From Deltaproteobacteria bacterium (GTDB lineage Bacteria > Desulfobacterota > Syntrophia > Syntrophales > UBA5619): a stretch of 64,000 nucleotides of DNA. The stretch spans positions 62,001-126,000 of the forward strand of contig JAJFTY010000054.1 of the NCBI GenBank assembly GCA_021372695.1, in the 5' to 3' direction. This document shows positions 45,968-64,000 of the stretch, piece by piece (the first letter of the stretch is position 1; every line of letters starts with the position of its first letter). A program made the translations under genes and the position numbers. The notes below the pieces were generated by a model. It ran no database searches. It was not told the DNA's origin and worked only from the letters and a program-made list of their open reading frames with translations.

Positions 45968-46975
45968 ATGAAACGTTCAGGTTTTGTATGTGTTGTTGTG
46001 TTCATGGCCATGTGTCTGGCAATCAGCGCATTCGCCGCTGAGAAAGTGACCGTTTATACGTCCCTCGAAACGGACGAGACGGTCAAATATCTCGAGGTTG
46101 CCAGAAGGGAGTTGCCGGACTTGGATATCAATGTCATCCGTCTTTCCACCGGTGAACTGGGTGCCCGCATGCTGGCGGAAAAGGACAACCCCCAGGCGGA
46201 TCTGGTGTGGGGCTGGGCCGTGACCGACATGGAACAGTTCGTCCCGAGGGGCCTTCTGGTGCCCTACAAACCCAAAGGCGTGGAGAGGCTCGAAAAACGT
46301 TTCGTTCATCCCCAGTTCATGTACACCGGCATTGACATGTACATTGCCGCCTTCTGCGTGAACACCAAGGTCATGCAGGAGAAGAACCTTCCCATGCCCA
46401 AGGGGTGGAACGATCTTCTTGATCCCAGATTCAAAGGCCTCGTCACCATGCCCAACCCGGTCGCCTCCGGCACGGGTTTCCTCCAGATCGCGAGCATCCT
46501 CCAGATGTACGGCGCGAAAGAGGGCAAGGAAGACGGCTGGGAATTCCTGAAAAAGCTGGACAAGAATATCGGCCAGTACATCAAGAGCGGATCGCGTCCG
46601 GCCAAGATGACGGCTGCAGGCGAGTTTGCCGTGGGGGCCTCTTTCGAATTCGTGGTGGCCGAATTGATCAAGCAGGGCTTCCCGGTGAAGTTCGTCTTCC
46701 CGATCGAGGGCGCGGGGTATGAAGTGGAGGCCAATGCCCTGATGAAGGGTGCGAAGAATCCCAATGCGGCCAAGAAGTTCCTGGATTGGGCCATTACGGA
46801 CAATGCCATGAAAGCCTACTCCGCATTCAAACACGGGGTGACCCTGCCCGGGATCCCCTCCCGCCCGGATCTGCCGAAACTCTCCGAAATCAAACTCTAC
46901 CCCATGGATTTTGCATGGCAGGCCAAGAACGCCCCCGACATCAAGAAGAAGTGGGAGACCCTCTTCTCCAAGTAG
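45968..46975 (+). CDS. ABC transporter substrate-binding protein, iron/2-aminoethylphosphonate type (1)
   Basis: 335 residues from ATG at 45968, with GGGAGGTT upstream. Signal peptide residues 1-24, cleavage likely AFA|AEK. The mature protein begins VTVYTSLETDE. GWNDLLDPRFKGLVTMPNPVASGTGF and IKSGSRPAKMTAAGEFAVGASFEF are the segments that, from memory, mark the AepX/PhnS-like group of the Fe3+-type family. That family holds proteins for phosphonates, amines, thiamine and iron. No iron-ligand tyrosine pair was evident, so an organic ligand is more likely. It begins the importer operon; a strong hairpin separates it from the ATPase gene. Confidence 0.85.
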   Translation: MKRSGFVCVVVFMAMCLAISAFAAEKVTVYTSLETDETVKYLEVARRELPDLDINVIRLSTGELGARMLAEKDNPQADLVWGWAVTDMEQFVPRGLLVPYKPKGVERLEKRFVHPQFMYTGIDMYIAAFCVNTKVMQEKNLPMPKGWNDLLDPRFKGLVTMPNPVASGTGFLQIASILQMYGAKEGKEDGWEFLKKLDKNIGQYIKSGSRPAKMTAAGEFAVGASFEFVVAELIKQGFPVKFVFPIEGAGYEVEANALMKGAKNPNAAKKFLDWAITDNAMKAYSAFKHGVTLPGIPSRPDLPKLSEIKLYPMDFAWQAKNAPDIKKKWETLFSK

Positions 46976-46982
46976 CATGAAA

Positions 46983-47029
46983 TGCCGGTCATCCTGCTGT
47001 AGTCAGGATGACCGGCACGAACTTTTTTT
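46983..47029 (+). terminator. Strong hairpin between binding-protein and ATPase genes
   Basis: A perfect 14-bp stem (TGCCGGTCATCCTG with its complement) has a seven-base loop. Five bases after the stem comes a run of seven T residues. It starts seven bases after the binding-protein stop. Such hairpins usually raise binding-protein output by partial termination or by protecting the 3' end. Full termination is possible. Confidence 0.8.
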
Positions 47030-47036
47030 ACCCCTG

Positions 47037-47050
47037 GTTCTGTATAGAAC
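47037..47050. promoter_or_regulatory. Short palindrome before the ATPase gene, possible GntR site
   Basis: GTTCT-GTAT-AGAAC is a perfect 5-4-5 dyad 26 bases before the ATPase start. It shares CTGTATA with the better site upstream of the transaldolase gene, so both could bind the GntR protein of this cluster. Confidence 0.35.
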
Positions 47051-47076
47051 TCTCAACATCTATGCGAGGATAGACG

Positions 47077-48162
47077 ATGGCCAGAGATCTCAAACTGGAA
47101 AATCTCACCAAGCACTACGGGAATCTCACAGCCGTGGATCATGTGAACCTGGAGATCAAGGAGGGGGAGTTCATCTGCTTTCTGGGACCCAGCGGTTGCG
47201 GAAAAACCACGATCCTCAGGATGATCACCGGATTCGAGACGGTCACCTCGGGGAGCGTGATTTTCAACGATCGCGTGATCAACGATCTCATCCCCAAGAA
47301 GCGTGAATTCGGGATTGTGTTCCAGTCCTACGCGCTTTTCCCGAACATGACCGTGGAGGAGAACATCGCCTTCGGCCTGAAGATGCGGAAGATGCCGAAG
47401 AAGTTCGTCGCGGAACGGGTGGACAAGATGCTCGAACTGATCGGCCTCTCCGACTGGCGCAGACTCTATCCGGCCCAACTCTCCGGAGGGCAGCAGCAGC
47501 GCGTCGCCCTGGTCAGGGCTCTGGCCCCGGATCCCCAGGTCCTGCTCCTTGACGAGCCCCTGAGCGCCCTTGATGCGAAAATCAGGCTCCGCCTGCGGGC
47601 GGAGATCAAGCGCCTGCAGCAGGAGTTGAAAAAGACGATGATCCATGTGACCCACGACCAGGAAGAGGCGCTCTCCATTGCCGACCGCGTCGTCGTCATG
47701 GAGAAGGGTGAATTCCGTCAGGTCGGACGGCCGATCGACATCTACAAGAATCCGAGCTGCAACTTCGTGGCGGACTTCGTGGGGACCTCCAACTTCTTCG
47801 AAGGCCGCCGCAACGCCGATGTCGTCGATATCGGCTGCCGGAAGATCCGGGTGACCCGCAACGGCAACGGTGCGCAAGAGAGGGTCACGCTGGCCATCCG
47901 TCCGGAGAATGTCGAGGTTTTCAAGCAGGATTCCGCCCCCGAGGTGCCCGAACCGATGAACCTCCTGACCGGCCGCATCGCGGTCGTGGTCTTCCAGGGG
48001 GCGGCCGTCCGGCTTCTCATCCAGGCGGGGCAGGAGGAGATCATCTCCGACATCATCGAAAAGGAGTTCGAGCAGCGCGGACTGAAGCAGGGGGATCAGG
48101 TCTATGTCTACTGTTCGCCCGAATCCTACCTGGTGTTTCCCGAAGGAGGGGGAAAGCAATGA
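47077..48162 (+). CDS. ABC transporter ATP-binding protein (1), MalK/PotA-like
   Basis: 361 residues. Walker A GPSGCGKT at 37-44, signature LSGGQQQRVALVRAL, Walker B LLLDEPLSALDAK and switch His in IHVTHDQEEAL. The C-terminal 120 residues are a TOBE regulatory domain (LAIRPENVEVF). It powers uptake through the fused permease whose start overlaps its stop (ATGA). It pairs with the binding protein at 45968. Closest overall type is the Fe3+/spermidine/phosphonate importer ATPase. Confidence 0.92.
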   Translation: MARDLKLENLTKHYGNLTAVDHVNLEIKEGEFICFLGPSGCGKTTILRMITGFETVTSGSVIFNDRVINDLIPKKREFGIVFQSYALFPNMTVEENIAFGLKMRKMPKKFVAERVDKMLELIGLSDWRRLYPAQLSGGQQQRVALVRALAPDPQVLLLDEPLSALDAKIRLRLRAEIKRLQQELKKTMIHVTHDQEEALSIADRVVVMEKGEFRQVGRPIDIYKNPSCNFVADFVGTSNFFEGRRNADVVDIGCRKIRVTRNGNGAQERVTLAIRPENVEVFKQDSAPEVPEPMNLLTGRIAVVVFQGAAVRLLIQAGQEEIISDIIEKEFEQRGLKQGDQVYVYCSPESYLVFPEGGGKQ

Positions 48163-49907
48163 GCCCTGTCGTTCCTTCCGGAAAGGGAATATCCGGCTGG
48201 TTCACGGCCGACAACCTCTTCACCTGGGTGATCATGGTCATCCTGATGGTGATCCTGACCGTCTTTCTGCTCTATCCGGTGGTGGACATCTGCCGGCTCA
48301 GCTTCATCAAGGACGGGGCTTTGACCCTGAGTAACTATACCGACTATTTTTCCGATCCCAGGATCTTCCGCTCCTTCTACAACAGCATGTATGTCTCTCT
48401 GGTGACGATGGTCGTCACGACGGTGCTGGCTTTTCTGTTTGCCTACGGTCTGACGCGCACGACCATGCCCGGGAAGGGGTTTTTCTACACGGTCTCCACG
48501 CTTCCCCTGATCGCGCCGACGATCATCCAGGCCCTGGCGCTGATCCTGCTTTTCGGTCGCAACGGCGTGATTACGCGCTACATGCTCGACACGAGCTGGA
48601 ACATCTACGGTGCCACGGGCATCATCGTGGGAGAGGTCCTCTACTGTTTCCCCAACGCCCTCTTCATCCTCTATACGACCCTGTCCGCGGTCGACACGCG
48701 GCTGGACGAGGCCGCCCAGAGCCTGGGCGCCTCGGCCATGAAGACCTTCTTCAAGGTGACCCTCCCCTCGGCCAAATACGGCATCGCCAGCGCCGCGGCG
48801 CTTTGTTTCAACCTGACCATCACCGACTTCGGCATCCCTGTGGTGATCGGAGGGGACTATTCGGTTCTGGCGACGGAAATCGTCAACAAGGTCTTCGGCA
48901 TGCAGCGGTTCGATCTGGGAGCGACGATCAGCGTGATTCTCCTGATCCCCTCCATCTCGGCTTTTGCGATCAACTACTACCTGACCCGGAAGAGCTATGC
49001 GATGATCAGCGGCCAGGCCCGCCCGTTCATCCAGCCTTCCCGGCCGCTCAAGAAATGGGGCTTCACCATCTACTCGGCGCTCATCTGCGCCAGCATCCTG
49101 CTGGTGTTTGTTACGGTCTTTCTGGGATCCTTCGTCCGGACTTGGCCTTACGATTTCTCCCTCACCCTCAAGCATTTCGACTTTCCGTCGCTCGGGGCGA
49201 GCGTGCCCATCTGGACCGCGTTCTGGAACAGCGTCCTGGAGCCGGGGCCGGTGCGGGAAATGATCGCCATCAAATACGCCCCCATCTGGACCAGCCTTCT
49301 GGTCTCCCTGGTGGTGGCCGTGATCGGGGCCTCGATCACGCTCGTGGCTTCATACATCATCGAAAAGAAGAAGCCCAAAGGTGAACAGCTTCTCTACGCC
49401 CTCTCCGTTCTGCCGGCGGCCATTCCCGGCGTGGTGCTCGGTCTGGGATACGTCCTGGCCTTCAACAAACCCTACTTTCTGATCTACGGAACCATCTGGA
49501 TCATCATCATCAACGTCGTCATCGCCAACTTTACGCTGGGGGTGCTCTCCGGGACCGCGAATCTCAAACAGATCGACAAATCAGTCGAGGAGGCCGCGGT
49601 CAGCCTGGGTGCGGGTCCCGTAACGACGTTCACGAAGATCGTCTTTCCGCTCTCCAAGGTGGCCTTCTTCTCGACGACCACCTTCTACTTCATGCGCTCG
49701 ATGACCACGATCAGCGCAGTTCTGTTCCTGGTATCGGCGCAAATCAAACTGGCCGCCATCGAGATCATCTTTCTCGACGTAGACGGCCGCACGGCGAGTG
49801 CCAACGCCATGTGTACCGTGGTCGTGCTGATCGTCGCCCTGTTTCTGATCGTCATGCGGATTACGACGGGCACTTCGGGCCTTTCCGGGATGAGTGCGAC
49901 GAAATGA
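48159..49907 (+). CDS. ABC transporter permease (1), two fused membrane domains
   Basis: 582 residues with about twelve helices and two permease units in one chain, as in FbpB/ThiP and phosphonate-type importers. Each unit has an EAA loop that docks on the ATPase: DEAAQSLGASAMKTFFKVTLP near 183 and EEAAVSLGAGPVTTFTKIVFP near 476. The first periplasmic loop is short. It starts inside the ATPase stop codon. With the ATPase and binding protein it forms a complete importer. Confidence 0.9.
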   Translation: MSPVVPSGKGISGWFTADNLFTWVIMVILMVILTVFLLYPVVDICRLSFIKDGALTLSNYTDYFSDPRIFRSFYNSMYVSLVTMVVTTVLAFLFAYGLTRTTMPGKGFFYTVSTLPLIAPTIIQALALILLFGRNGVITRYMLDTSWNIYGATGIIVGEVLYCFPNALFILYTTLSAVDTRLDEAAQSLGASAMKTFFKVTLPSAKYGIASAAALCFNLTITDFGIPVVIGGDYSVLATEIVNKVFGMQRFDLGATISVILLIPSISAFAINYYLTRKSYAMISGQARPFIQPSRPLKKWGFTIYSALICASILLVFVTVFLGSFVRTWPYDFSLTLKHFDFPSLGASVPIWTAFWNSVLEPGPVREMIAIKYAPIWTSLLVSLVVAVIGASITLVASYIIEKKKPKGEQLLYALSVLPAAIPGVVLGLGYVLAFNKPYFLIYGTIWIIIINVVIANFTLGVLSGTANLKQIDKSVEEAAVSLGAGPVTTFTKIVFPLSKVAFFSTTTFYFMRSMTTISAVLFLVSAQIKLAAIEIIFLDVDGRTASANAMCTVVVLIVALFLIVMRITTGTSGLSGMSATK

Positions 49908-49923
49908 CGGGGGGCATGAGAAC

Positions 49924-50694
49924 ATGAATGTCATCGATCCGAACAATCCCATTCCCAAATACCTGCAGATCAGCGCCTGGATCAGGGAACTGATCCAGTC
50001 GGGGAGATACGAGAAGGGGGCCTCGCTGCCTTCGGAGGTGGAGCTGGCAAGGATCTGTCAGGTGAATCGCAATACGCTCCGGCAGGCCATTTCGGAGCTG
50101 AGTACGGCGGGGGTGCTGCGGCGGGAAAAGGGACGGGGGACTTTCGTCTGCGCAGAGACCCCCCTGGCGATCACGCACAAGCTCAAGAGCATTTCCAGCT
50201 TCAGCGCCGATCTGCACGAACTGGGGATCAGAGAGAAGACCCGGATCGTCAAGAAGGGCCAGGAAGAGGCGAAGGAGCAGGTGGCCAAGAAGCTGATCCT
50301 GGGACCGAACGCTAAGGTGGTCGCCATCCGCCGACTGCGCACGGGTAACGATGTGCCCTTCATTTACGAGGAGAGTTTTCTCCCCGCAACGAAATTTTCG
50401 GAGATTCTGAAGATGGACCTGACCGGCTCCATGTATCAGATCATCGACGAATGTTTCAACGTCACCCTGGCCCGGTCCGACCAGACCATTCGTGCGATCA
50501 ATCTCAAGGGCCGCATCGCCTCATACTTGGGTCTTCCCGAGAACTCGGCAGCCTTCTTCATGGAGAGCCTGACCTTCGACGAGAACAATATCCCCGTGGA
50601 ACTGCTCCATTCTTATTACCGGGGTGACAAGTACGTCTTTGAAGTTGAGCTGGGGCGCTACCATATTGAGGAAGACAAGGTTCATCACGATTAG
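49924..50694 (+). CDS. GntR-family (HutC/UTRA) transcriptional regulator
   Basis: 256 residues from ATG at 49924. Winged helix at about 7-75: IPKYLQISAWIRELIQSGRYEKG, then SLPSEVELARICQVNRNTLRQAISEL, then GVLRREKGRGTFV. A UTRA effector domain follows (about 95-250), with the usual RLRTGNDVPFIYEESFLP. UTRA domains sense small sugars, amines, histidine-pathway intermediates or phosphonates (PhnF). It lies 16 bases after the importer permease and before the catabolic genes, so it likely controls both in response to the imported compound or a product. A matching operator-like site lies 22 bases after its stop. Confidence 0.9.
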   Translation: MNVIDPNNPIPKYLQISAWIRELIQSGRYEKGASLPSEVELARICQVNRNTLRQAISELSTAGVLRREKGRGTFVCAETPLAITHKLKSISSFSADLHELGIREKTRIVKKGQEEAKEQVAKKLILGPNAKVVAIRRLRTGNDVPFIYEESFLPATKFSEILKMDLTGSMYQIIDECFNVTLARSDQTIRAINLKGRIASYLGLPENSAAFFMESLTFDENNIPVELLHSYYRGDKYVFEVELGRYHIEEDKVHHD

Positions 50695-50716
50695 GTTGCG
50701 TTTCCGGTGGACATCC

Positions 50717-50743
50717 TGTATATACATCTAAACAATGTACAGG
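50717..50743. promoter_or_regulatory. Candidate operator of the GntR/UTRA regulator
   Basis: TGTATATACA at 50717-50726 is a perfect dyad that fits the HutC-family consensus GT-N-TA-N-AC. It lies in a larger inverted repeat, CCTGTA (50715-50720) with TACAGG (50738-50743). It lies directly upstream of the transaldolase-like gene and downstream of the regulator gene. Confidence 0.55.
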
Positions 50744-50767
50744 AATCCAGTTTGACAAGGAGGAATA

Positions 50768-51970
50768 ATGAATAAGGTTAATATGTTGGAGAAACTGGTC
50801 GCGGTCAGCCCCGGCATGGAAATTTGGTGGGATTCCTCGCCGGTCATCTTCGAAAACTGGTGCCGGAAGTTGCTCGTCAAAACCCCGGAGGAAGGCGAGC
50901 AGGAGGTGCTCCAGTGCCAATTTGCGAGGATGTACGACGGGAAGAATCCTGACGCCTGGCTCTTCCGCGGCGTAACGACCAATCCCTCCCTCTCCCTCCA
51001 GGCGATCAAGGATAACGAGCCCTACTGGAAGGGTGTGGTGAAGGGAATGATCGAGGAGAATCCGGGAATCGACAAGGAGTCCCTCTTCTGGCTCCTCTAC
51101 AAGGAGATCATCCGGCGTGGCTCGACGATGTTCCTCCCACTCTTCGAGAAGAGCGGCCACAAGGAGGGGTACCTTTCCGGACAGGTGGACCCGCGCAAGT
51201 GCTACGACCGGGACGTCATGCTCAAACAGGCCTACGATCTGGCTTCCATCAATCCCAACGTCATGATCAAGGTCCCGGGCACCAAGGAGGGGTACGAGGT
51301 GATCGAAATCCTCACGGCCCAGGGGATCGCCACGAACAACACCCTGACGTTTGTGCTATCGCAGCTCATGGACTGCGCCAAGTCCGTGCAGCGGGGGCTG
51401 GAGAAGGCCAAGGCCAATCACGTGGATCTGACCCGCTGGCGCTCCGTGATCACCCACATGGAGGCGCGCTACGGCGATCTGGGAGGGCTGCGTGATTTTG
51501 CCAAGGAAAAGGGCGTCGAGCTTTCCGAGGGCGAGGTCCGCTGGGCGGAACTGGCGATTTTCAAGAAGGCCTACCGGCTCATCAAGGAGAGGAAGTACCC
51601 GAGCAAGCTCCTCTCCTGTTCGCTCCGGGTGGGGCCGAAGGTGGACGGTACGCTGCGGGTCTGGCACCTTGAGGAGAAGGCGGGTGCCAACATCGTGGTC
51701 ACCTGCCCGCCGGGCTTCATCGACGAGGTGATCCATTTCCCCGGCCAGGAGAACATCGTCTTCGAGAAGGGGAGGATCGACCGGGAGATCCCGAAGGAAA
51801 CGCTGGAGAAGTTGCTTCGGATCCCCTATTTCGCGCGGGCCTACGCCGAGGACGGCTATACCCGCGACGAATACAGGACCCTTCCTCCGCTGATCAAGAC
51901 AGCGGAACAGTTCAGCAAGGCAACCGACGACATGGTGGCGTTTGTCGGGAAATGTATCGATGAAAAATAG
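50768..51970 (+). CDS. Transaldolase-family protein of unusual context
   Basis: 400 residues. Transaldolase (beta/alpha)8 signatures are intact: FRGVTTNPSL at 66-75, SGQVDPR near 137-143 and NVMIKVPGTKEGYEVIE with the Schiff-base lysine Lys168. GIATNNTLTFVLSQ follows, where the second T of transaldolases would lie. It is longer than the TalA/TalB (about 317) and FSA-type (about 220) proteins, with a 20-residue N-terminal extension and a larger C-terminal part. A three-carbon ketol or aldol transfer through a lysine imine is therefore expected, but no sugar-phosphate gene is nearby. AAGGAGG precedes the ATG. Confidence 0.82.
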   Translation: MNKVNMLEKLVAVSPGMEIWWDSSPVIFENWCRKLLVKTPEEGEQEVLQCQFARMYDGKNPDAWLFRGVTTNPSLSLQAIKDNEPYWKGVVKGMIEENPGIDKESLFWLLYKEIIRRGSTMFLPLFEKSGHKEGYLSGQVDPRKCYDRDVMLKQAYDLASINPNVMIKVPGTKEGYEVIEILTAQGIATNNTLTFVLSQLMDCAKSVQRGLEKAKANHVDLTRWRSVITHMEARYGDLGGLRDFAKEKGVELSEGEVRWAELAIFKKAYRLIKERKYPSKLLSCSLRVGPKVDGTLRVWHLEEKAGANIVVTCPPGFIDEVIHFPGQENIVFEKGRIDREIPKETLEKLLRIPYFARAYAEDGYTRDEYRTLPPLIKTAEQFSKATDDMVAFVGKCIDEK

Positions 51971-51999
51971 GAGGACTCACTGAAAGGAGAGGAAAAAGT

Positions 52000-53094
52000 A
52001 TGAAACCCCTGAAGGATTGGTTTGTTCCATGGCTTCTGACCGCCCGGGAGTACAACACCGCCATACTCGACAAGGCCTGGGCGAAGCCCGATTACGGTCG
52101 TCTGATGCTCAATGAGAATCCGGTGCCCCCGTCGGACAAGGTGATCAAGGCGGTGACCGATATCCTCTCCAAGGGGAACCGTTATCCGGACAGCATGCTC
52201 CGGCTGCGGACCAAACTGGGAAAGCTCCACAACCTGGGACCGAACAACATCGGCCTGTGCAATGGCTCTTCCGAGATCATCGACTGCATGATGCGGATCT
52301 TCCTGGAACCCGGAGATGAATTCATCGTTTCCAATCCGACGTTCGGACTCTTCCCCCCGCGGGCGGAACTGGTCGGCGGGAAGGTGATTTCTGTGCCCCT
52401 GCGCAAGGAGGACCTCCAGTACGACACGGATGCCATGCTCAAGGCCATCACCCCCAAAACCAAGCTGATGCTCGTCATCAACCCCAACAACCCAACAGGC
52501 ATCTTCATCGACGACAAGGACCTGATCCGTTTCTGCGAGACGGGGATCCCCCTCTGCGTCGACGAGGCCTACCTGGACTACCACCCCCAGATTCCCTCGA
52601 AGGACTTCCTGCTCAAGAAGTATCCGCAGGTGTTCCTCTCCCACACCTTCTCGAAGGCTTACGGGTTTGCCGGCATCCGCTTCGGGTATGTGGTCGGTAC
52701 CGAGGAGATGGTCGCTGCATTCAACCGGATGTTCCTGCCCTGGAACGTGAGCCTGATGGCGATGGCCGCGGCCGAGGCGATCCTCGACAACCCGGAGGAA
52801 CTGGCCGCCAAGGTGAAGCACAACAACCGCTGGATGGAGATCTTCACCAAGGAACTGGTCCAGGTGGGATTGAAACCTTTCCCGGCCCACGGCAATTACA
52901 TGCTCATCGACGCCACCATGACCGGCAAAGCCACCGCCCAGATTCTGGCGGCAGCATTGGAGATGGAGCATATCTTCCTCAAGAGCATCTCTCCGATCCA
53001 CGGCAAAGACGGTTATTTCCGGGTGACGCCGGGCGTGGACGCAGAAAACGAGCGCTTTATCCGTTTCGTCCACAACTACTTCGGGAAACGTTAA
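52000..53094 (+). CDS. Class I/II aminotransferase, HisC/CobD-like
   Basis: 364 residues. PLP enzyme fold type I: LNENPVPPSDKVIKAV start, GSSEIIDCMMRIFLEPGDE, cofactor Asn in NPNNPTG at 161-167, DEAYLDY at 188-194 and PLP lysine Lys219 in SHTFSKAYGFAGIRFGY. This is the histidinol-phosphate aminotransferase / threonine-phosphate decarboxylase group, many members of which act on phosphorylated or otherwise anionic amino compounds. AAAGGAGAGG precedes the ATG, 29 bases after the transaldolase stop. With the transaldolase it suggests processing of an amino-aldol skeleton, which is an inference. Confidence 0.85.
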   Translation: MKPLKDWFVPWLLTAREYNTAILDKAWAKPDYGRLMLNENPVPPSDKVIKAVTDILSKGNRYPDSMLRLRTKLGKLHNLGPNNIGLCNGSSEIIDCMMRIFLEPGDEFIVSNPTFGLFPPRAELVGGKVISVPLRKEDLQYDTDAMLKAITPKTKLMLVINPNNPTGIFIDDKDLIRFCETGIPLCVDEAYLDYHPQIPSKDFLLKKYPQVFLSHTFSKAYGFAGIRFGYVVGTEEMVAAFNRMFLPWNVSLMAMAAAEAILDNPEELAAKVKHNNRWMEIFTKELVQVGLKPFPAHGNYMLIDATMTGKATAQILAAALEMEHIFLKSISPIHGKDGYFRVTPGVDAENERFIRFVHNYFGKR

Positions 53095-53106
53095 AAACAG
53101 GCTCCA

Positions 53107-53138
53107 CCCTGACCTCCCCGTCACGGGGGAGGTCAGGG
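53107..53138 (+). terminator. Hairpin between the aminotransferase and etfB
   Basis: CCCTGACCTCCCC and GGGGAGGTCAGGG pair over 13 bases with a six-base loop. It lacks a T-run, so it may mark a processed transcript end or a weak terminator dividing the cluster into two units. Confidence 0.6.
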
Positions 53139-53216
53139 CGATTCGGGATTTCCCCGGATGAAGGTGGAGAGAATTTCGTCTGATACCGGTCCGACAAGAA
53201 TGCAGGACTCCCTTCC

Positions 53217-55157: not shown

Positions 55158-57578
55158 ATGCGTGACAGTGCACGGGTTGTGATCATCGGCGGAGGCATCG
55201 TCGGCTGCAGCATCGCCTATCACCTGACCAGGATGGGGTGGCGGGATGTGCTCATCCTGGAAAAGGGGGAATTGACCAGCGGCTCGACCTGGCATGCGGC
55301 GGGTCTTGTAGGACAGCTCCGCTCTCACCGGGACGTCACCCGGATGCTTCAGTACAGCGTCAGCCTCTACAAGACCCTGGAGGCGGAGACGGGACTGACC
55401 ACGGGCTGGAAACAGAGCGGATGTCTCCACCTGGCCAGCACCCAGGAGCGGATCCTCGAATTGAAGAAAGGGGCCACCACGGCCCGCAGCTTTGGCCTCG
55501 ATCTTCACATGATCACCCCGGAAGAGGCGCGGAATCTCTGCCCGATTCTCAACATGGACGGGATCATCGGCGCGGCCTTCATGCCGTCGGACGGCCAGGC
55601 GGACCCCAGCGGTCTGACCATGGCCATGGCCAAGGGGGCCTTGAACCGCGGTGCCACGATAGAGCAGAAGACCCTGGTGACGGGATTCGAGATCCGCCAC
55701 GACCGCGTCGAGGCCATCCTGACGGACAAGGGCAGGATCCGCTGCGAAACGGTCGTGAACGCCGCCGGCATGTGGGGCCGCGAGATCGGCCGGATGATGG
55801 GCGTCAACATTCCCCTGGTTCCCTTCCAGCACCAGTACCTCGTGACCGAGGCGATCGAGGGGGTACCGCCGAACATGCCGACGCTCCGCGACAAGGACAG
55901 CCTCCTCTACTACAAGGAGGAGGTGGGGGGGCTCGTCATGGGCGGTTACGAACGCGACGGCATCCCCTGGTCCATCCGGGGGATTCCCAAGGGGTTTACC
56001 CAGGAGCTTCTGGAGCCCGACTTCGACCATTTCGAGTCCATATCACAGGCGGCCGTGAACCGGACCCCCTGCCTCGGGACGGCCGGGATCGCACGTCTGG
56101 TCAACGGACCGGAGGCCTTTACCCCGGATGGGAACTGCATGCTGGGGCCGGCCCCGGAACTTGCGAACTGCTTCGTCGCCGTCGGGTTCAATGCATTCGG
56201 AATCGCGGCCGGCGGCGGCGCCGGCAGGATGGTAGCCGAATGGATCGTCGAGGGGGAACCGAGCCTCAACATCTGGCCCCTCGACATCCGCCGTTTCGGC
56301 CAGTACCACCGGAGCCTCAACTACAATGTCGAACGGACCAAGGAGATCTACGGCAAGCACTACACCATCTCCTGGCCCCATGAAGAGCACGATTCGGCAA
56401 GGCGGGTAAAACGGTCGCCGCTCTACTGGCTCCTGAAGGAGAAGGGGGCGGTGTACGGGGCCAAGTACGGCTGGGAGCGGGCCAACTGGTTCGCCCCGGC
56501 CGGGGTGGAAGCGAAGGACGTTCCGACCTTCGGGATTCCCAACTGGTTCCAACATGTGGCCGCGGAGCACAAAGCGGCCCGAGAGGCGGTGGTCCTGATC
56601 GACCAGAGCTCGTTCAGCAAGTTCGAGGTTTCGGGAGCGGGGGCCCTGGCGTTCCTCAATCGCGTCGCCGCGGCCAACCTGGACCGGCCCGTGGGATCGA
56701 CGGTCTATACCCAACTCTGCAACGAACGGGGCGGGATCGAGGCGGACATCACCATCTCCCGGACGGCGGAGCAGACCTTCTTCCTGATCACGGGGACAGC
56801 CTTCGGGGTGCACGATTTCCAGTGGCTCAAAAGGCACCTGCCGACGGACGGGTCCGTTCTTCTTCGCGATGTGACCTCTGCCTTTGCGATGATCAATGTC
56901 TGCGGTCCCAAGTCGCGCGAGCTCCTGCAGCGCCTGACCGAGGATGATTTTTCGAACGAAGCCTTTCCCTTCAGTCGGTGCCGCCAGGTCGTGATCGGCT
57001 ACGCGCCGGTGCTGGCACTCCGGGTGACCTACATCGGAGAACTCGGCTACGAACTCTACACGCCGCCGGAGTATGCCGCCGGCCTCTACGAGGCCCTCTG
57101 GGAGGCGGGGCACGATGTGGGCATCCGCAACGCGGGGTATCGGGCCATCGACTCGCTCCGACTGGAGAAGGGCTACTGCTACTGGGGCGCCGAGGTGTCG
57201 CCCGATTACACCCCTTACGACGCGGGCCTCGGCTTTGCCGTGAGCCTGGACAAGGGGCCTTTCGTGGGGCGTGATGCCCTCATGAAGATCAAAAAGGATG
57301 GGCCGGCCTGGAAACTCTGCCTCTTCACGCTGGAGGCCGACCGGCCGATGCTTCTCTACGGAGGGGAAACCATCACCTGCCGGGGGAACGTCGTGGGCGT
57401 CGTTTCCAGCGGCGGCCACGGTCACACTGTGGGAAAGACCATCGCGCTCGGTTACCTGTCTGCTTCCGATGCGAAGGCGTCCGACGGTTTTGCCGTTGAA
57501 GTCTTCGGGGAATCCTTCCCGGCCGTCCGTTGGTCCCGGCCTCCGTACGATCCGGAACGGCGGCGGATTTTCTTGTAG
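55158..57578 (+). CDS. Dimethylglycine/sarcosine dehydrogenase-like flavoprotein
   Basis: 806 residues in the order of mitochondrial DMGDH. The N-terminal DAO/FAD fold has VVIIGGGIVGCSIAYHLTRMG at 7-27. TSGSTWHAAGLVGQ follows; His46 sits where DMGDH holds its FAD covalently. The FAO central domain comes next, then a GcvT-like tetrahydrofolate domain (about 430-800) with LNRVAAANLDRPVG, YIGELGYELYTPPEYAAGLY and GYRAIDSLRLEKGYCYWGAEVSPD. It would oxidise an N-methyl group to the formaldehyde level on tetrahydrofolate, passing electrons to the ETF encoded just before. AAAGGAG precedes the ATG. Substrate could be dimethylglycine, sarcosine or another methylamine. Confidence 0.88.
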   Translation: MRDSARVVIIGGGIVGCSIAYHLTRMGWRDVLILEKGELTSGSTWHAAGLVGQLRSHRDVTRMLQYSVSLYKTLEAETGLTTGWKQSGCLHLASTQERILELKKGATTARSFGLDLHMITPEEARNLCPILNMDGIIGAAFMPSDGQADPSGLTMAMAKGALNRGATIEQKTLVTGFEIRHDRVEAILTDKGRIRCETVVNAAGMWGREIGRMMGVNIPLVPFQHQYLVTEAIEGVPPNMPTLRDKDSLLYYKEEVGGLVMGGYERDGIPWSIRGIPKGFTQELLEPDFDHFESISQAAVNRTPCLGTAGIARLVNGPEAFTPDGNCMLGPAPELANCFVAVGFNAFGIAAGGGAGRMVAEWIVEGEPSLNIWPLDIRRFGQYHRSLNYNVERTKEIYGKHYTISWPHEEHDSARRVKRSPLYWLLKEKGAVYGAKYGWERANWFAPAGVEAKDVPTFGIPNWFQHVAAEHKAAREAVVLIDQSSFSKFEVSGAGALAFLNRVAAANLDRPVGSTVYTQLCNERGGIEADITISRTAEQTFFLITGTAFGVHDFQWLKRHLPTDGSVLLRDVTSAFAMINVCGPKSRELLQRLTEDDFSNEAFPFSRCRQVVIGYAPVLALRVTYIGELGYELYTPPEYAAGLYEALWEAGHDVGIRNAGYRAIDSLRLEKGYCYWGAEVSPDYTPYDAGLGFAVSLDKGPFVGRDALMKIKKDGPAWKLCLFTLEADRPMLLYGGETITCRGNVVGVVSSGGHGHTVGKTIALGYLSASDAKASDGFAVEVFGESFPAVRWSRPPYDPERRRIFL

Positions 57579-57722
57579 GCCGAATGAACGATTGATGCTA
57601 GCATACCGCGCAAAGAGCGCCTGACGCTGGGAGAGAAACGGGCGGAAGCCCGGGGAAACGAAGATGGAAAGGGGGATCGTGCCATAGCCTAAACCAGTTT
57701 TTCTTGAAGAAGGAGGGAACAT

Positions 57723-58724
57723 ATGACCGGCAAGAGAAGATTCATCGGTTTTGTCCTGCTCGCGGCCCTGCTGTGCGTGATGATGGCAGCGGCTCCTCTC
57801 TGTTGGGCGCAACCGGAGCTGCGCGTCTACACCCACAATGAGACGGCCGAGATGGAAAAATGGGTCCCGGTGGCGGAAAAGGCGATCGGCATGAAGATCG
57901 TCTGGAGTCCCCGCCTGGCGTCGAATGAACTGTGGACCCGTGTCCTGACGGAAAATCCCAACTTCAACGCCGACGTGATCTGGGGTTTCCTGAACTCCGA
58001 CGCCCAGGTAGGCGCACAGAGGGGGTTCTTTGTGCCCTACGCGTCGCCGGCATGGGCCGATATCCCGGCAGAATTCAAGGATCCGGATCATCAGTGGTAC
58101 GGCTACAACTACTGGTTTTCCGCCATCGCCGTGAACCCGGACCTGCTGAAAAAGAAGAACCTGCCCAAGCCCCAATCCTGGGTCGACCTGACCAATCCCG
58201 TCTACAAGGGCGAAATCGTGATGCCCGATCCGGCCACCAGCGGCACGGCCTTTATCTTCGTCTCTGCGGTCATGCAGATTTTCGGCGAGAACAAGGGATG
58301 GGAGATCCTCGAGAAGATTCACAAGAACGCCGGACAGTACACCAAATCCGGTTCGGCGCCGGCCCAATCCGTAGCCCAAGGGGAGTACGCGATCGGGATC
58401 AGCTGGGACCAGGCCGTCTATGGCAGGGTCGAGCAGAAATTCCCCATCGAGGGGCTCATCCCCTCGGAAGGCACCGCGTTTGACCTGGAGTCCGTGGCGA
58501 TCCTGAAAGGGACCAAGAACCTGGTCGGCGCCAAGAAACTGGTCGATTGGCTCGGTACCAAGGAAGGCCAGACCCAGATCGGTCTCCTTCGCTCGAAGGT
58601 GACACGGCCCGGCGTTCCCGGGAAGGTTCTCGTCGATCCCAAACTGATCAAGTATGACGCGCTCTGGGCCGGGGAGAACAAGAAGCGGATCATGGGCGAG
58701 TGGGCCAAACGTTTCTCCAAATGA
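57723..58724 (+). CDS. ABC transporter substrate-binding protein, iron/2-aminoethylphosphonate type (2)
   Basis: 333 residues. Signal peptide 1-29, cleavage likely CWA|QPE. The mature protein starts ELRVYTHNETAEMEKW and contains WVDLTNPVYKGEIVMPDPATSGTAFIF and YTKSGSAPAQSVAQGEYAIGISW, the same family signatures as the first binding protein but with clearly different sequence. It therefore probably sees a related, not identical, ligand. AAGGAGGG precedes the ATG. It opens the second importer, 144 bases after the flavoprotein dehydrogenase. Confidence 0.85.
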   Translation: MTGKRRFIGFVLLAALLCVMMAAAPLCWAQPELRVYTHNETAEMEKWVPVAEKAIGMKIVWSPRLASNELWTRVLTENPNFNADVIWGFLNSDAQVGAQRGFFVPYASPAWADIPAEFKDPDHQWYGYNYWFSAIAVNPDLLKKKNLPKPQSWVDLTNPVYKGEIVMPDPATSGTAFIFVSAVMQIFGENKGWEILEKIHKNAGQYTKSGSAPAQSVAQGEYAIGISWDQAVYGRVEQKFPIEGLIPSEGTAFDLESVAILKGTKNLVGAKKLVDWLGTKEGQTQIGLLRSKVTRPGVPGKVLVDPKLIKYDALWAGENKKRIMGEWAKRFSK

Positions 58725-58856
58725 TCGTTGGGCCCCTTTGAAGTCTTCATCCCCCGGCAAGCGGGATATCGTTTCGACCCGATGCGCGCCCCGGGGATGA
58801 AGATTTCAAAATCGGCCAGGTTTCTCTCCCGTCCAAACAGTCGTCGAGGCAACAGG

Positions 58857-60794
58857 ATGCCATTTCCGGGTAGTGTAGCCCTGAAGCAGCAGGTGGATGA
58901 CTTTCGCCATCTCTTCCGTCGTCCGGGTCTGCTCTTCGTCACCACTGTCGCGGTGCTGTTGATCTTTCTGTTCATCGTTTTGCCGATCGGATCGGTCCTG
59001 ACCAAGAGCTTCACGGTCAGCTACCCGACGGTGACCATCGCCTATCCGGACGCCGGGGGCGGGGAGGCGGAGAAAAGGGCCGCCGAGTCCCTCCGCCAGA
59101 TTCTGCAGGGAATACAGGGCATTGAACAGACCCGGTTCCAAAAAGAGGATGGGACGGCCGTCCATACCGTCCGCTTCCGCAAGGAATGGGACGATCTCAA
59201 GGGTTTCAACGACATCAAGCGGGCGATCAAACGAAACAAGGCTAACCTGGACCCGCTCGTCGCGGGAGCCAAACTCTCGCTCGGCAAGGAGGCGACGGCG
59301 AGCCTCGCCACCTACGGGGATTTCTTCTCCGGCGGGCGGTATTACCGGGCCCTGAAAAACAGCATCGTCGTCGCCATCGTCACCACGCTCCTGGTGATCC
59401 CGCTCGCCTTCTGCTTTGCCTATCTGGGACTGAAGGGGCCGGGCGTGCTGAAGTTGCCTCTGAGGATGCTCGGGCTCATTCCGCTGGTCGCACCCCCCTT
59501 CATCTTCTCGCTCGCCCTGATCATCATCGGCGGTCGCCACGGAATTCTGACGCAGTTTCTGAACCTGCCCTTCAACATCTACGGCTGGCGGGGGGTGATC
59601 ATCGCCCAGGTGATCACCTTCCTGCCGCTGGGCTACCTGATGATCGAAAACGTTCTGCGCTCCCTGGGCTCCAACCTGGAGGAGGCCGCCTATGACATGC
59701 GCGCCTCGGATTGGCAGATCCTCTACAAGATCACGATCCCCCTCGCGGCCCCGGGGATTCTGAAGGCCTCGCTCCTCGTGTTCATCCTTTCGATTGCCGA
59801 CTTCGGAAATCCGATGCTGATCGGGGGGGATGTCCCTTTCCTCTCCACAGGCGCCTATCTTCTGTGGGTCAGTGACAACAACCTGGAGATGGCGGCGGTC
59901 TTCTGCGTCTTCCTGGTGCTGCCCAGCATGATCATCTTCGTGGTGAACGAGTATCTCCTCAAGGGGAAGGCCTACACCACGATCGGCGGCAAGCCTCAGC
60001 AGACGGAGCGCCGTCCGATCGCCCCGAACATCCTCTACCCGATGCTGGCGCTGGCGGCCCTCGCCTCGGCGGTCATCCTGGTAAGCTTCGGTGTCATTTT
60101 CTTCGGGGCCTTCACCAAGATCCTGATGGTGGACAACACCTGGACGCTCGACCATTTCCGGAGCCCCAACGGCTTCCGGACGCTGATCACGAGCCTCAAG
60201 TTTTCGCTGGGGGCCGCCATGGTCGCCCCCGCGGTCGGCGTCACGCTCTCCTACATCCTGGTCCGCAAAAGGATCCCGCTGAAGAAGGTTCTGGAGTCTC
60301 TGGCCCTATTGGGTTTTGCCGTTCCCGGGACGGTCATGGGGATCGGCTATATCCTGGCCTTCAACCACCCGCCCCTGCAACTCACCGGGACCTTCATCAT
60401 CCTGATCGTCAACGAGGCGTTCCGCAACCTCTCGGTGAGCCTCGAAGCCGGCGTCGGCAAGCTGCATCAGATCGACGTGGCCATCGAGGAGGCGGCGGCG
60501 GACATGGGCGCGGGCTCTTTCCGGATATTTTTCAAAATCGTTCTGCCCCTGATCAGCTCCGCCTTTGTCGCCGGCTTCATCTACACATTCATGGTCGGCA
60601 TGATCGCGGTGAGTGCGGTGATCTTCCTGATCACCCCGGGCAATGACCTAGCGGCGCTGTACATCCTGAACGTCGCCGAGCAGGGGTATCTGGGGATGGC
60701 CTGCGCGATCTCGACGATGCTGATTGCGGTCGTCCTGGCCTGCATGGGTGGCCTGAAGCTTCTGCTCAAATACACGAAAACCGAGGTGTTCTGA
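58857..60794 (+). CDS. ABC transporter permease (2), two fused membrane domains with a long first periplasmic loop
   Basis: 645 residues from ATG at 58857 (GAGG seven bases upstream); longer in-frame starts exist at 58797 and above but lack spacing. Two permease units, with EAA loops EEAAYDMRASDWQILYKITIP near 275 and EEAAADMGAGSFRIFFKIVLP near 543. Between the first helix (about 23-45) and the second (about 165) lies a hydrophilic segment of roughly 120 residues, about 80 more than in the first permease. It is rich in Lys/Arg/Glu (KRAIKRNKANL). It pairs with the binding protein and ATPase on either side. Confidence 0.88.
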   Translation: MPFPGSVALKQQVDDFRHLFRRPGLLFVTTVAVLLIFLFIVLPIGSVLTKSFTVSYPTVTIAYPDAGGGEAEKRAAESLRQILQGIQGIEQTRFQKEDGTAVHTVRFRKEWDDLKGFNDIKRAIKRNKANLDPLVAGAKLSLGKEATASLATYGDFFSGGRYYRALKNSIVVAIVTTLLVIPLAFCFAYLGLKGPGVLKLPLRMLGLIPLVAPPFIFSLALIIIGGRHGILTQFLNLPFNIYGWRGVIIAQVITFLPLGYLMIENVLRSLGSNLEEAAYDMRASDWQILYKITIPLAAPGILKASLLVFILSIADFGNPMLIGGDVPFLSTGAYLLWVSDNNLEMAAVFCVFLVLPSMIIFVVNEYLLKGKAYTTIGGKPQQTERRPIAPNILYPMLALAALASAVILVSFGVIFFGAFTKILMVDNTWTLDHFRSPNGFRTLITSLKFSLGAAMVAPAVGVTLSYILVRKRIPLKKVLESLALLGFAVPGTVMGIGYILAFNHPPLQLTGTFIILIVNEAFRNLSVSLEAGVGKLHQIDVAIEEAAADMGAGSFRIFFKIVLPLISSAFVAGFIYTFMVGMIAVSAVIFLITPGNDLAALYILNVAEQGYLGMACAISTMLIAVVLACMGGLKLLLKYTKTEVF

Positions 60795-60809
60795 AAGGGT
60801 AGGGCAAAG

Positions 60810-61946
60810 ATGGGTTTAAACGGCTCCTCCATACTGGAATTGCAGAATATCGTCAAGCGCTTCGGTACGATGACGGCGGTCAACCATGTCTCCCTGGATC
60901 TGGAAAAAGGGAAACTGATCACCTTCCTGGGCCCCAGCGGCTGCGGCAAGACCACCCTGCTTCGCGTGGTCAGCGGATTTACCGTTCCTGATGAGGGGAG
61001 GGTCCTTCTCGACGGGGAGGACATCACGGAGGTCCAGCCCAACGCCCGGGACACGGCCATGGTCTTTCAGAACTACGCCCTCTTTCCGCACATGACCGTG
61101 GCCGACAATATCGCGTTCGGCCTCAGAATCATGAAGAAACCGAAACGGGAGGTCGCCGACGAGGTCGAACGGCTGCTTTCGCTGGTCCAGATGGAGGGGC
61201 TAGGGGGAAGGCGTCCCCATGAGCTCTCCGGCGGCCAGCAGCAGCGGGTGGCCCTGGCCCGGGCGCTCAGCCTCCACCCGAAAATCCTCCTTCTGGACGA
61301 GCCGCTCTCGAACCTCGACGCCAACTTGCGCCTGCTGATGCGGGGCGAGATCCGCAAACTCCATCGCCGCCTGGGCCTCTCCATCATTTTCGTCACCCAC
61401 GATCAGGAAGAGGCGATGTCGCTTTCGGATCAGCTCGTGGTGATGGATCAGGGGGTGGTGAAACAGATCGGCTCCCCGACGGAGATCTACGAGACCCCGG
61501 TCGACGAATTCGTCGCGCGGTTCATCGGTCACATCAACTTCCTGCCGGGCGAGGTCACGGCAGTCCGGGAGGGCCGGATCACTTTCCGGACCTGCCACGG
61601 CGACTGGTCGGTCGCGCAGCCCTCCTTTCCCGTTGCTCCGGGCGAACGGATGGAGGCGGTGGTGCGCCCCGAATCGATCGGCATCCGCGCAGCGGACGAG
61701 CCGCACGGTGAGGAAGAGACCAACGTCATCGAAGGCCGCGTGGAATTTGCGATGTACATCGGTGCGATCATCCGCTATACGGTGCTCTGCGGAGAGCAGA
61801 CGATGTACATCGATGAGACCGATCCCCAGTATACGGGGATCCTGAAGGAGGGGACCCGGGTCCGGCTCTCCTTCAAAGACCGGATACACATGCTCCGGTT
61901 GGGGGCCGCCGTTCCAGGGCCGGAACGGGGAGGGGATCACTCATGA
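60810..61946 (+). CDS. ABC transporter ATP-binding protein (2), MalK/PotA-like
   Basis: 378 residues. Walker A GPSGCGKT at 41-48, signature LSGGQQQRVALARAL, Walker B LLLDEPLSNLDAN and His switch IFVTHDQEEAM. The C-terminal TOBE region (VVRPESIGIRAADEP onward) is present. It is similar in layout to the first ATPase of the cluster but differs throughout. Its stop overlaps the MttB start (ATGA), so import and demethylation are coupled in translation, a strong sign that the importer carries the methyltransferase's substrate. Confidence 0.92.
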   Translation: MGLNGSSILELQNIVKRFGTMTAVNHVSLDLEKGKLITFLGPSGCGKTTLLRVVSGFTVPDEGRVLLDGEDITEVQPNARDTAMVFQNYALFPHMTVADNIAFGLRIMKKPKREVADEVERLLSLVQMEGLGGRRPHELSGGQQQRVALARALSLHPKILLLDEPLSNLDANLRLLMRGEIRKLHRRLGLSIIFVTHDQEEAMSLSDQLVVMDQGVVKQIGSPTEIYETPVDEFVARFIGHINFLPGEVTAVREGRITFRTCHGDWSVAQPSFPVAPGERMEAVVRPESIGIRAADEPHGEEETNVIEGRVEFAMYIGAIIRYTVLCGEQTMYIDETDPQYTGILKEGTRVRLSFKDRIHMLRLGAAVPGPERGGDHS

Positions 61947-63403
61947 ACTGGGCGGAATTCCTGACAGCGCAGGAGGTGGAGCGGGTGCACGAGGCGTCGC
62001 TTTCCATCCTGGAAGAGACGGGCATCCTGGTGCGCAATGAAAAGGCGCGCAAGATCTTCGCGCAGGCGGGATGCCGTGTGGAGGGCGAAACGGGGGTGGT
62101 CAAGATCCCCGGGAAGGTGGTCGAAGCATACAGCAAGGCTTTCCCTCACTCCTTCACCTTCCGCGGCCGCGACCCCCGGTACGACCGCACCATTCCGGAA
62201 GAGGGGCCGATCATGATTACCGCAAGCTCCGCACCGGACATCATCGATCCGGAAACGGGCGAACGGCGGAGGGCCACTGCCGGGGACATAGCCCGGATTG
62301 CGGCGCTTGTCAACGAACTGCCGGGATATGACGTCTTTTCGATCTCGACCCTGGCCGCCGATGCGCCGCCCGGGCTCGGGAGCGTGGCGCGGTTCTACCC
62401 GGCCCTGAAGAACTGCCTGAAACCCGTTCGCAGCAACACGCCGAACATGAGGGAGCTTCAGGAGGTGCTGGAACTGGGGGCCCTCATCGCGGGCGGCGAA
62501 GAGGCGTACCGGGAGAGGCCCCTCATCAACCACCACTACTGTCCCGTGGTCTCTCCCCTCACCATGGATGTGGAGTCCACGGAAGCGGTGATTCATCTGA
62601 CCGGGAAGGGGCTGCCGGTCTACGGAACGATCTGTCCCAACGCCGGGATGAGCTCGCCGCTCAGCCTGCTTGCGACGCTGGCCCAGGGAAATGCGGAGTT
62701 TCTGGCGCTCGCCGTGCTGATGCAGATGATCAAGAGCGGCGCCCCGCTGATCTATGCCGTTCTGGCCACCGTGGCCGACATGAGGACCGGAAATTACGCC
62801 CCCGGTGGGATCGAGACGGCCATGCTTCAGATCGGATTCAGCCAGATGGCCCGCCGCTACCGTGTCCCTTCGGGAGGGTATATCGGCCTGACGAACGCGC
62901 ATATGAACGATGCGCAGTCCGGCTATGAAACGGGGATGGGCACCACGGCGGCCCTGCTGGGAGGGGCCGACATGCTCAACATGGGCGGGCTCCTGGGAAG
63001 CCTGATGGTGTTCGACTTTGCCAAGGCGATGATCGATCATGAAATCGCGATGATGCTGAAGCAGCTGCGCAGGGGCATCCGATTCCAGCCGGACGATCTC
63101 TGCCTGGGGCTTATCGGCGAGGTCGGACCGGGCGGCACCTTCATGGATCAGATCCATACGCTGGAGAAGATGCGCACGACGGCCTATCTGCCGAAGATTG
63201 CGACGCGGGAGATGGGGGAACGCTGGGAACAGGAGGGGCGAGCGGAGATCGGATCCCGCGCCCTGAAAGAGGCAAAACGGATGTGGGCACCGAAAGGCCC
63301 CGCCCTCTTCGGCGCAGAGCTGGACCGGAAGATCCTCTCCCGGTTTCCCGGATTGGGATCGGTCGCGGATTCGGGGGCACAGGGGCGTCATTTAAAGGGG
63401 TGA
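61943..63403 (+). CDS. mttB: MttB-family corrinoid methyltransferase, non-pyrrolysine type
   Basis: 486 residues, close to the 495 of trimethylamine methyltransferase, with no in-frame amber codon. It therefore lacks the pyrrolysine of true MttB and belongs with the MtgB (glycine betaine), MtpB (proline betaine) and MtcB (carnitine) branch. The N-terminus LTAQEVERVHEASLSILEETGILV and the core MQMIKSGAPLIYAVLATVADMRTGNYAPGGIETAMLQIG are family hallmarks. It would move a methyl group from a quaternary amine to the Co(I) corrinoid protein encoded next. Which betaine cannot be read from the sequence. The start overlaps the ATPase stop. Confidence 0.9.
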   Translation: MNWAEFLTAQEVERVHEASLSILEETGILVRNEKARKIFAQAGCRVEGETGVVKIPGKVVEAYSKAFPHSFTFRGRDPRYDRTIPEEGPIMITASSAPDIIDPETGERRRATAGDIARIAALVNELPGYDVFSISTLAADAPPGLGSVARFYPALKNCLKPVRSNTPNMRELQEVLELGALIAGGEEAYRERPLINHHYCPVVSPLTMDVESTEAVIHLTGKGLPVYGTICPNAGMSSPLSLLATLAQGNAEFLALAVLMQMIKSGAPLIYAVLATVADMRTGNYAPGGIETAMLQIGFSQMARRYRVPSGGYIGLTNAHMNDAQSGYETGMGTTAALLGGADMLNMGGLLGSLMVFDFAKAMIDHEIAMMLKQLRRGIRFQPDDLCLGLIGEVGPGGTFMDQIHTLEKMRTTAYLPKIATREMGERWEQEGRAEIGSRALKEAKRMWAPKGPALFGAELDRKILSRFPGLGSVADSGAQGRHLKG

Positions 63404-63408
63404 TTCCA

Positions 63409-64000
63409 ATGGCTGTTCGGGAGATATACGATGCGGTGTTGGCGTTCGACGGGAAGCGGGCCGCCGACAGGGTCCGGGAGGAACTGGACCGAGGTACCGA
63501 TGTTCAGACCATCCTGAATGCGGGACTCATCAGCGCCATGGATGAGGTGGGCCGGCGCTTCAGCGAGGGCGACCTCTTCCTGCCGGAGATGCTCCTCGCC
63601 GCGAAGACGATGAAAGCGGGGCTGGAGGTTTTGCGGCCGCGCCTCTCGGCCGCTGCCGGAGAGCTTCTGGGAACCGTCGTCATCGCCACCGTGAAGGGAG
63701 ATCTCCACGATATCGGCAAGAACCTGGTGGCCATGATGCTCGAAGGGGCCGGCTTCAAGGTGATCAACCTGGGCGCCGACGTCGATGCGGACGGTTTCGT
63801 CCGGGCCGCTAAGGACAACAAGGCGGACCTCGTCTGCCTGTCGGCCCTGCTGACCACCACCATGCCGGCCATGGCTGCGACGGTGAAGGCCGTTCGCGCC
63901 TCCGGCTGCCCGGCGCGGATCCTGGTGGGCGGCGCGCCGGTCACGCAGGGCTTCGCGGATCAGATCGGCGCCGATGGGTATGGCACCGATGCACCCGGAG
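63409..64000 (+). CDS. Corrinoid (cobalamin-binding) methyl-carrier protein, C-terminus cut off
   Basis: The first 197 residues are in the window. A helical cap domain (about 1-85) leads to a Rossmann-like B12 domain with KGDLHDIGKN; His100 is the lower axial cobalt ligand in DxHxxG. LSALLTTTMPAM and LVGGAPVTQGFADQIGADGYG are the usual later segments. It is the MttC/MtgC-type partner that carries the methyl group from the MttB protein to a second methyltransferase (to tetrahydrofolate or CoM), which must lie beyond the right edge. It starts five bases after mttB. Confidence 0.92.
   Translation, partial: MAVREIYDAVLAFDGKRAADRVREELDRGTDVQTILNAGLISAMDEVGRRFSEGDLFLPEMLLAAKTMKAGLEVLRPRLSAAAGELLGTVVIATVKGDLHDIGKNLVAMMLEGAGFKVINLGADVDADGFVRAAKDNKADLVCLSALLTTTMPAMAATVKAVRASGCPARILVGGAPVTQGFADQIGADGYGTDAPG

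Follow-up and report, generated by a model that had tools for sequence, protein, structure and literature searches.

A run of 14 genes at positions 45968-64000, all on the + strand and separated by intergenic gaps of -4 to 144 bp, closes the 64,000-nucleotide stretch analysed here (the window) from a Deltaproteobacteria bacterium (Syntrophales, UBA5619; GenBank assembly GCA_021372695.1, contig JAJFTY010000054.1, positions 62,001 to 126,000 of the forward strand), and with a probability of about 0.6 it constitutes catabolic machinery for phosphorylated choline and ethanolamine head groups. Ethanolamine or one of its methylated forms, esterified with phosphate, is the likely substrate. In the proposed pathway, two ATP-binding cassette (ABC) importers would take up phosphoethanolamine together with its N-methylated derivatives, phosphocholine included; the methyltransferase MttB would transfer one methyl group of phosphocholine to a corrinoid protein; a flavoprotein like dimethylglycine dehydrogenase (DMGDH), with its own electron-transfer flavoprotein (ETF), would oxidise the remaining N-methyl groups onto tetrahydrofolate; a HisC-like aminotransferase (HISC) would transaminate phosphoethanolamine, the acceptor being probably pyruvate, to glycolaldehyde phosphate; and a transaldolase (TAL) would use a ketose phosphate (fructose-6-phosphate, for example) as the donor of dihydroxyacetone to glycolaldehyde phosphate, with the formation of xylulose-5-phosphate. 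We infer every substrate and product of this pathway, the evidence at hand being the gene families, their recurring linkage, the phosphate-contact motifs of the binding proteins, and, in relatives, neighbouring genes for kinases, a phospho-lyase, transketolase and CbbY-like proteins. A preliminary description, made from the sequence alone, had named the 14 same-strand genes with their families, all of which were recovered by Pfam and NCBIfam assignments. Its outline of uptake, corrinoid methyl transfer, flavin/ETF N-demethylation, transamination and carbon-skeleton handling is kept, except that TAL probably builds a pentose phosphate instead of cleaving the skeleton; its methylated and zwitterionic or anionic substrate is kept as well, with the anion being probably a phosphate ester (phosphocholine/phosphoethanolamine) and not a phosphonate or a carboxylate betaine. 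Few lipid head groups are commoner than the phosphates of choline and ethanolamine. If the pathway is true, a transaldolase and a HisC-like enzyme acquire a new use in the conversion of a head group to one-carbon units, ammonium and pentose phosphate, a transaldolase subfamily that occurs in several phyla gains a function, and some importers named for 2-aminoethylphosphonate (AEP) or iron carry amine phosphate esters. Within a limited paper collection, nothing relevant to the proposed route or gene combination was found.

The gene linkage was followed from TAL (50768..51970, +), a member of a distinct transaldolase subfamily. At E <= 0.001, TAL matched 3224 proteins, and 23 sequences out of the best 120 were aligned; the scan of a genome collection with the TAL alignment gave 91 confirmed places, and the best 80 of these 91 were analysed as loci, with their open reading frames labelled by BLAST against the window proteins and representatives. 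The 80 loci belong mainly to Desulfobacterota, Chloroflexota and Actinomycetota; many of them are cut by contig ends, so that the neighbour counts are minima, and each neighbour family was named from the Pfam or NCBIfam assignment of a single representative. Found in these loci were HISC (51), GntR (35), DMGDH (24), ETF alpha (15) and ETF beta (14), transketolase (19, plus a divergent form in 8), any choline- or APH-type kinase (19), alanine dehydrogenase (15), an AEP-type importer (12), and fructose-bisphosphate aldolase and a CbbY-like HAD protein (7 each, in exactly the same 7 loci). Since the first-half genes of the island recur in relatives with their order kept, this half is no chance grouping. 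The island as a whole looks like a module, from importer 1 to DMGDH, with an added unit of importer 2, MttB and the corrinoid protein, because the most similar genomes are without MttB. The recurring neighbourhoods also hold other genes: a 263-residue protein, U263, whose representative has no Pfam match, and a protein with four CBS domains precede DMGDH in nine loci (L050, L051, L057, L060, L061, L069, L070, L075, L076); in L141 (262-10328), the genes after TAL encode a kinase, an OpuAC-type binding protein, an ABC ATPase, a permease, another kinase and a ferredoxin-domain radical SAM protein, and a shorter OpuAC-matching reading frame is present too; in L143 (6896-8386), a gene of the MtmB family (monomethylamine methyltransferase) adjoins a corrinoid-protein gene and TAL.

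HISC (52000..53094, +), which is proposed to be a phosphoethanolamine:pyruvate transaminase, scores 256 bits against the 276.55-bit cut-off of the histidinol-phosphate transaminase model HisC (TIGR01141). By such sequence scores it is judged not to be the histidine enzyme, because the locus copy lies below this cut-off in 13 of 13 searched relatives and another gene lies above it in 11 of the 13. The HisC-type enzymes act on 2-aminoalkyl phosphates, the simplest of which is phosphoethanolamine, and pyruvate is suggested as the amino acceptor by the alanine dehydrogenase beside HISC in the 15 loci. TAL scores 109.8 bits against the Pfam family TAL_FSA (cut-off 27 bits), its Lys168 aligns with the conserved transaldolase lysine of 3r5e and is invariant in 23 of 23 aligned sequences, and its predicted structure (mean predicted local distance difference test score, pLDDT, of 88.5, good confidence) has transaldolases as the top fold-search matches. 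Addition of dihydroxyacetone to glycolaldehyde phosphate by a transaldolase would, by known stereochemistry, give xylulose-5-phosphate, and an aldolase with glycolaldehyde phosphate and dihydroxyacetone phosphate would give xylulose-1,5-bisphosphate. The representative HAD protein has as its best match 4uav (E 2e-63). This entry is the xylulose-1,5-bisphosphate phosphatase AtCbbYA, CbbY being described as making xylulose-5-phosphate from xylulose-1,5-bisphosphate (PMC10212915). The transketolase, fructose-bisphosphate aldolase and CbbY-like neighbours fit a xylulose-5-phosphate route. In two genomes (G001 and G003), no TAL_FSA gene was found besides the locus TAL, which may therefore double there as the transaldolase of the ordinary pentose phosphate pathway. 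The chemistry of HISC and TAL is what we infer, and the gene context supports the substrate class. The fuller proposal, for which the odds appear about even, is a phosphate-conserving route for the whole head group in at least three phyla, with the methyl groups passing to the one-carbon pool, the nitrogen leaving via HISC (and alanine dehydrogenase), and the C2-phosphate joined with a triose unit into xylulose-5-phosphate either by the dedicated transaldolase or by an aldolase with a CbbY-type phosphatase.

The kinases and lyases of the relatives point to the same class of compounds and supply the alternative that survives best. The solved relatives of a representative kinase from beside TAL/HISC are choline/ethanolamine kinases, and a kinase-M23-aminotransferase-III fusion was found, with ethanolamine-phosphate phospho-lyase (6tor, E 3e-141) as the best match of its lyase part. 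This lyase part is present at 72-100% identity in five of the 22 genomes searched (out of the 36 TAL genomes described below), the other copies being at most 46% identical, and these five are the same five Desulfobacterota genomes that have an MttB orthologue. In three Desulfobacterota genomes the fusion lies on the cluster contig: with TAL, HISC and DMGDH in G018 (C273), with TAL, HISC, DMGDH and MttB in G021 (C299), and with DMGDH and MttB in G022 (C1253). The ethanolamine kinase/ethanolamine-phosphate phospho-lyase route has the phosphoethanolamine intermediate in common with the proposed pathway and a kinase-lyase fusion in the related clusters; unlike it, the HisC-like transaminase and the transaldolase of the window would retain the phosphate in a sugar phosphate product. 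Demethylation may run to phosphoethanolamine just as proposed, with the phosphoethanolamine leaving via the phospho-lyase, and HISC and TAL acting on some other amino sugar or amino alcohol phosphate. Both gene sets are indeed present in the Desulfobacterota genomes, and in four Candidatus Roizmanbacteria contigs (L063, L064, L066, L067) a TAL-HISC pair of about 40% identity stands alone, no demethylation, kinase or importer genes being recognised near it. These contigs count against the proposed pathway, as do the three clusters that hold the phospho-lyase together with TAL/HISC or DMGDH, in which HISC/TAL may serve another substrate or phosphoethanolamine may have two exits. However, the lyase copies in the searched Syntrophales-like and Chloroflexota genomes do not exceed 46% identity, and in the Chloroflexota clusters TAL and HISC adjoin the kinase and DMGDH genes; this alternative is judged unlikely.

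The demethylation enzymes bear upon a second alternative, glycine betaine as the substrate, with MttB of the MtgB type, the flavoprotein a true dimethylglycine/sarcosine dehydrogenase, glycine the end product, and TAL and HISC serving another purpose. The flavoprotein (55158..57578, +; proposed phospho-(di/mono)methylethanolamine dehydrogenase) has the DAO, FAO_M, GCV_T and GCV_T_C domains of dimethylglycine dehydrogenase, the GCV_T one being the folate domain, and the GSTWHAAG motif, which has a flavin role; it is preceded by ETF beta (53217..53984, +) and ETF alpha (54051..55013, +). Its best solved match is dimethylglycine dehydrogenase, an ETF-linked enzyme with FAD and folate domains to which it matches over the full length, although, unlike that enzyme, its gene context points to a phosphorylated substrate. 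The MttB-superfamily methyltransferase (61943..63403, +; proposed phosphocholine:corrinoid methyltransferase) scores 339 bits against the 525-bit cut-off for trimethylamine methyltransferase (TIGR02369) and has no in-frame TAG for pyrrolysine; its best solved match is MtgB, and the best NCBIfam model of the corrinoid protein (63409..64000, +, the gene cut by the window end) is MtgC_2, below the cut-off. These likenesses favour glycine betaine. On the other side, three of the four MtgB betaine contacts, which are docking predictions and not solved contacts (Y94, N199, R309, H345), are replaced in the window MttB: Y94, R309 and H345 correspond to S95, G311 and N346, none of which varies among the 16 aligned orthologues, and N199 aligns with P201 with a gap adjoining. 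The clade has its own invariant residues R163, H197 and H198, which the predicted model of modest confidence (mean pLDDT 76) places on predicted strands, and no more. Furthermore, glycine betaine leaves TAL, HISC, the kinases and the phospho-lyase unexplained, and this alternative is ranked below a phosphate ester and appears somewhat less probable than the phospho-lyase exit.

Phosphocholine as a methyl donor has a known precedent. An MttB-family enzyme of Eubacterium limosum is described as demethylating phosphocholine (2025; PMC12155760), with choline being taken to N,N-dimethylaminoethanol via MthK/MthB/MthC/MthA; an MttB-family enzyme and a corrinoid protein are thus common to this system and the window, a likeness drawn from the description and the gene neighbours. 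Unlike it, the window has the DMGDH-like enzyme, HISC and TAL, which suggests that the whole head group is used, and phosphate-type importers in place of a linked kinase. Orthologues of MttB (54-64% identity, the next listed copies being at most 35%) were found in 15 of the 36 searched TAL genomes, that of G015 reading as two pieces. Among the 13 fetched orthologue stretches longer than 5 kb, a DMGDH-family gene is present on 9 and a choline- or APH-type kinase on 7 (one via the adjoining stretch L116), no such kinase being present in the window. In G374 (L147) the gene order is kinase-EamA-MttB-kinase, the kinase and EamA being of the same kinds as in the mth cluster described for E. limosum (PMC12155760). 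A second DMGDH paralogue, of about 40% identity, is common on the orthologue stretches, and several relatives carry one in the cluster, which would fit two oxidation steps. Other features were noted around these genes. A putative Rieske oxygenase lies between a DMGDH paralogue and the MttB orthologue in L121 (10231-11493) and is perhaps an oxygen-dependent alternative demethylase. A PfkB-family kinase adjoins the MttB orthologue in four loci (L114, 1613-2713; L115; L122; L124). There are 44 MttB-family matches in G015 (the genome of L022), several with an in-frame TAG (pyrrolysine type), and 14 to 31 in each of G012, G018, G021 and G022.

The importers consist of the periplasmic binding protein SBP1 (45968..46975, +), the ABC ATPase ATP1 (47077..48162, +) and the fused double permease PERM1 (48159..49907, +), and of a second binding protein, SBP2 (57723..58724, +), the fused double permease PERM2 (58857..60794, +; the start is uncertain, ATG 58857 being more likely and the in-frame TTG 58728 also open) and a second ABC ATPase, ATP2 (60810..61946, +). 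Both had been called AEP-type, which holds as similarity and not as membership: their best matches are PhnS2, PhnU2 and PhnT2, and all six proteins fall below the curated NCBIfam cut-offs (TIGR03261/TIGR03262/TIGR03265 set), SBP1 with 325.8 and SBP2 with 254.7 against 392.75 bits, PERM1 with 493.5 and PERM2 with 263.4 against 593.25 bits, and ATP1 with 434.5 and ATP2 with 372.2 against 457.7 bits. Among solved structures, SBP1 is closest to AfuA (4r72 and others), 8x1a and P5PA (6wce), a protein that binds pyridoxal phosphate, and SBP2 to 8x1a, AfuA and P5PA; both AfuA and P5PA are binders of phosphate esters. The phosphate contacts are given as Ser37 and Thr150 for AfuA, and Thr37, Ser147, Gly148, Thr149 and Ser183 for P5PA (PMC4546632 and PMC8427247, cited jointly for both). 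By sequence alignment and converted numbering only, SBP1 has Thr61, SGT and KSG, and SBP2 has Ser, SGT and KSG at these positions, whereas His205/Asp206, the sugar residues of AfuA, are replaced by Phe/Val in SBP1 and Gln/Ala in SBP2, so that a hexose phosphate is not indicated. The window importers share with AepXVW, AfuABC and P5PAB the binding-protein family and the phosphate contacts, and differ in lying below the AEP cut-offs and in the loss of the AfuA sugar pair. The main text of the AepX paper contains neither 'phosphoethanolamine' nor 'phosphocholine' (PMC8316502). A methylated aminophosphonate (N-methylated AEP), with HISC acting like an AEP transaminase, is improbable and ranks below the phosphate ester, in spite of the similarity of the importers and of the GntR/UTRA regulator (49924..50694, +; PhnF-like, below the cut-off) to phosphonate systems, since, besides the importer scores, no C-P lyase or phosphonatase was found among the scanned representative neighbours (no genome-wide search being made), the HAD protein reaches 41 where the phosphonoacetaldehyde hydrolase cut-off is 220, and the relatives of choline kinase and ethanolamine-phosphate phospho-lyase indicate phosphate esters.

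A kinase was found in only one of the 22 loci with an AEP-type importer, as compared with 13 of the 17 with an APC or OpuAC importer (Fisher p 3.5e-6, for lineages that are not independent). Such an exclusion would be expected, and is most simply read, if a phosphorylated compound enters through the one kind of importer and the free amine through the other. In L122, an importer of another subtype stands beside the MttB orthologue, with genes for a phosphate transporter of the PHO4 family and for a PhoU-like protein in between (4569-6192), as if phosphate needed handling.

Several observations weigh against the phosphate-ester pathway. The exclusion between kinase and importer tracks lineages, has one exception (L037), weakens over all 98 loci (p 0.028), and falls short of significance in the first 80 (p 0.16); moreover, G001, G002, G003 and G006 carry a choline-kinase-family gene over the cut-off elsewhere in the genome. 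Close relatives of SBP2-PERM2-ATP2 were absent beside the MttB orthologue in the 13 stretches longer than 5 kb, the MttB-adjacent binding proteins of L115 and L122 belong to another subtype and are without the phosphate motifs, and a corrinoid-protein gene is near the orthologue in only 2 of the 13 stretches, in L119 beside another MttB. Among the five searched genomes with a CbbY-like gene, ribulose-1,5-bisphosphate carboxylase/oxygenase (RuBisCO) gave no match in three (G027, G029, G033), but it is present in two (G028, G031). The ten genomes whose TAL is most similar (G001-G010; by title, seven Syntrophales, Syntrophaceae or Syntrophus and three Deltaproteobacteria), as well as G023, have no MttB match above 35% identity, and in a phylum sample of 395 genomes TAL (E <= 1e-50) was found in 20, the MttB orthologue (E <= 1e-110) in one, namely G374, and both in none. 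Since the two never meet in this sample, MttB is no fixed part of the module. The preliminary description had proposed co-occurrence across Desulfobacterota as a check of its combined locus, which was to be given up if the two halves were separable in related genomes and never met. Separable they are, both by the genomes without MttB and by G024, a complete single chromosome with the MttB orthologue more than 2 Mb from the nearest TAL. Nevertheless, the halves do meet, TAL and MttB being at most 17 kb apart in five of the 36 searched TAL genomes, from two phyla (G021, G027, G031, G033, G036), and DMGDH and MttB lying on one contig in G022.

As to the remaining features of the window, no second copies of the module proteins were found elsewhere in it (tblastn, E <= 1e-5), and the Rfam search of 42000-64000 gave no match. 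By consensus scan only, a 14-pair hairpin followed by a T-run, terminator- or attenuator-like, lies between SBP1 and ATP1 (46983..47017, +), and a 16-pair hairpin, listed on the - strand and left here without an assigned strand, lies between HISC and ETF beta (53104..53141); the same scan found 20 terminator-like sites against 15.8 expected and 2 promoter-like sites against 3.8 expected, the latter being uninformative. Directly upstream of SBP1 (42792-45668) lie genes like those of the 4-amino-4-deoxy-L-arabinose (Ara4N) lipid A pathway, encoding a formyltransferase, a UDP-4-keto-pentose/UDP-xylose synthase and a deformylase, and a protein resembling this deformylase immediately precedes TAL in L129 (8416-9276).

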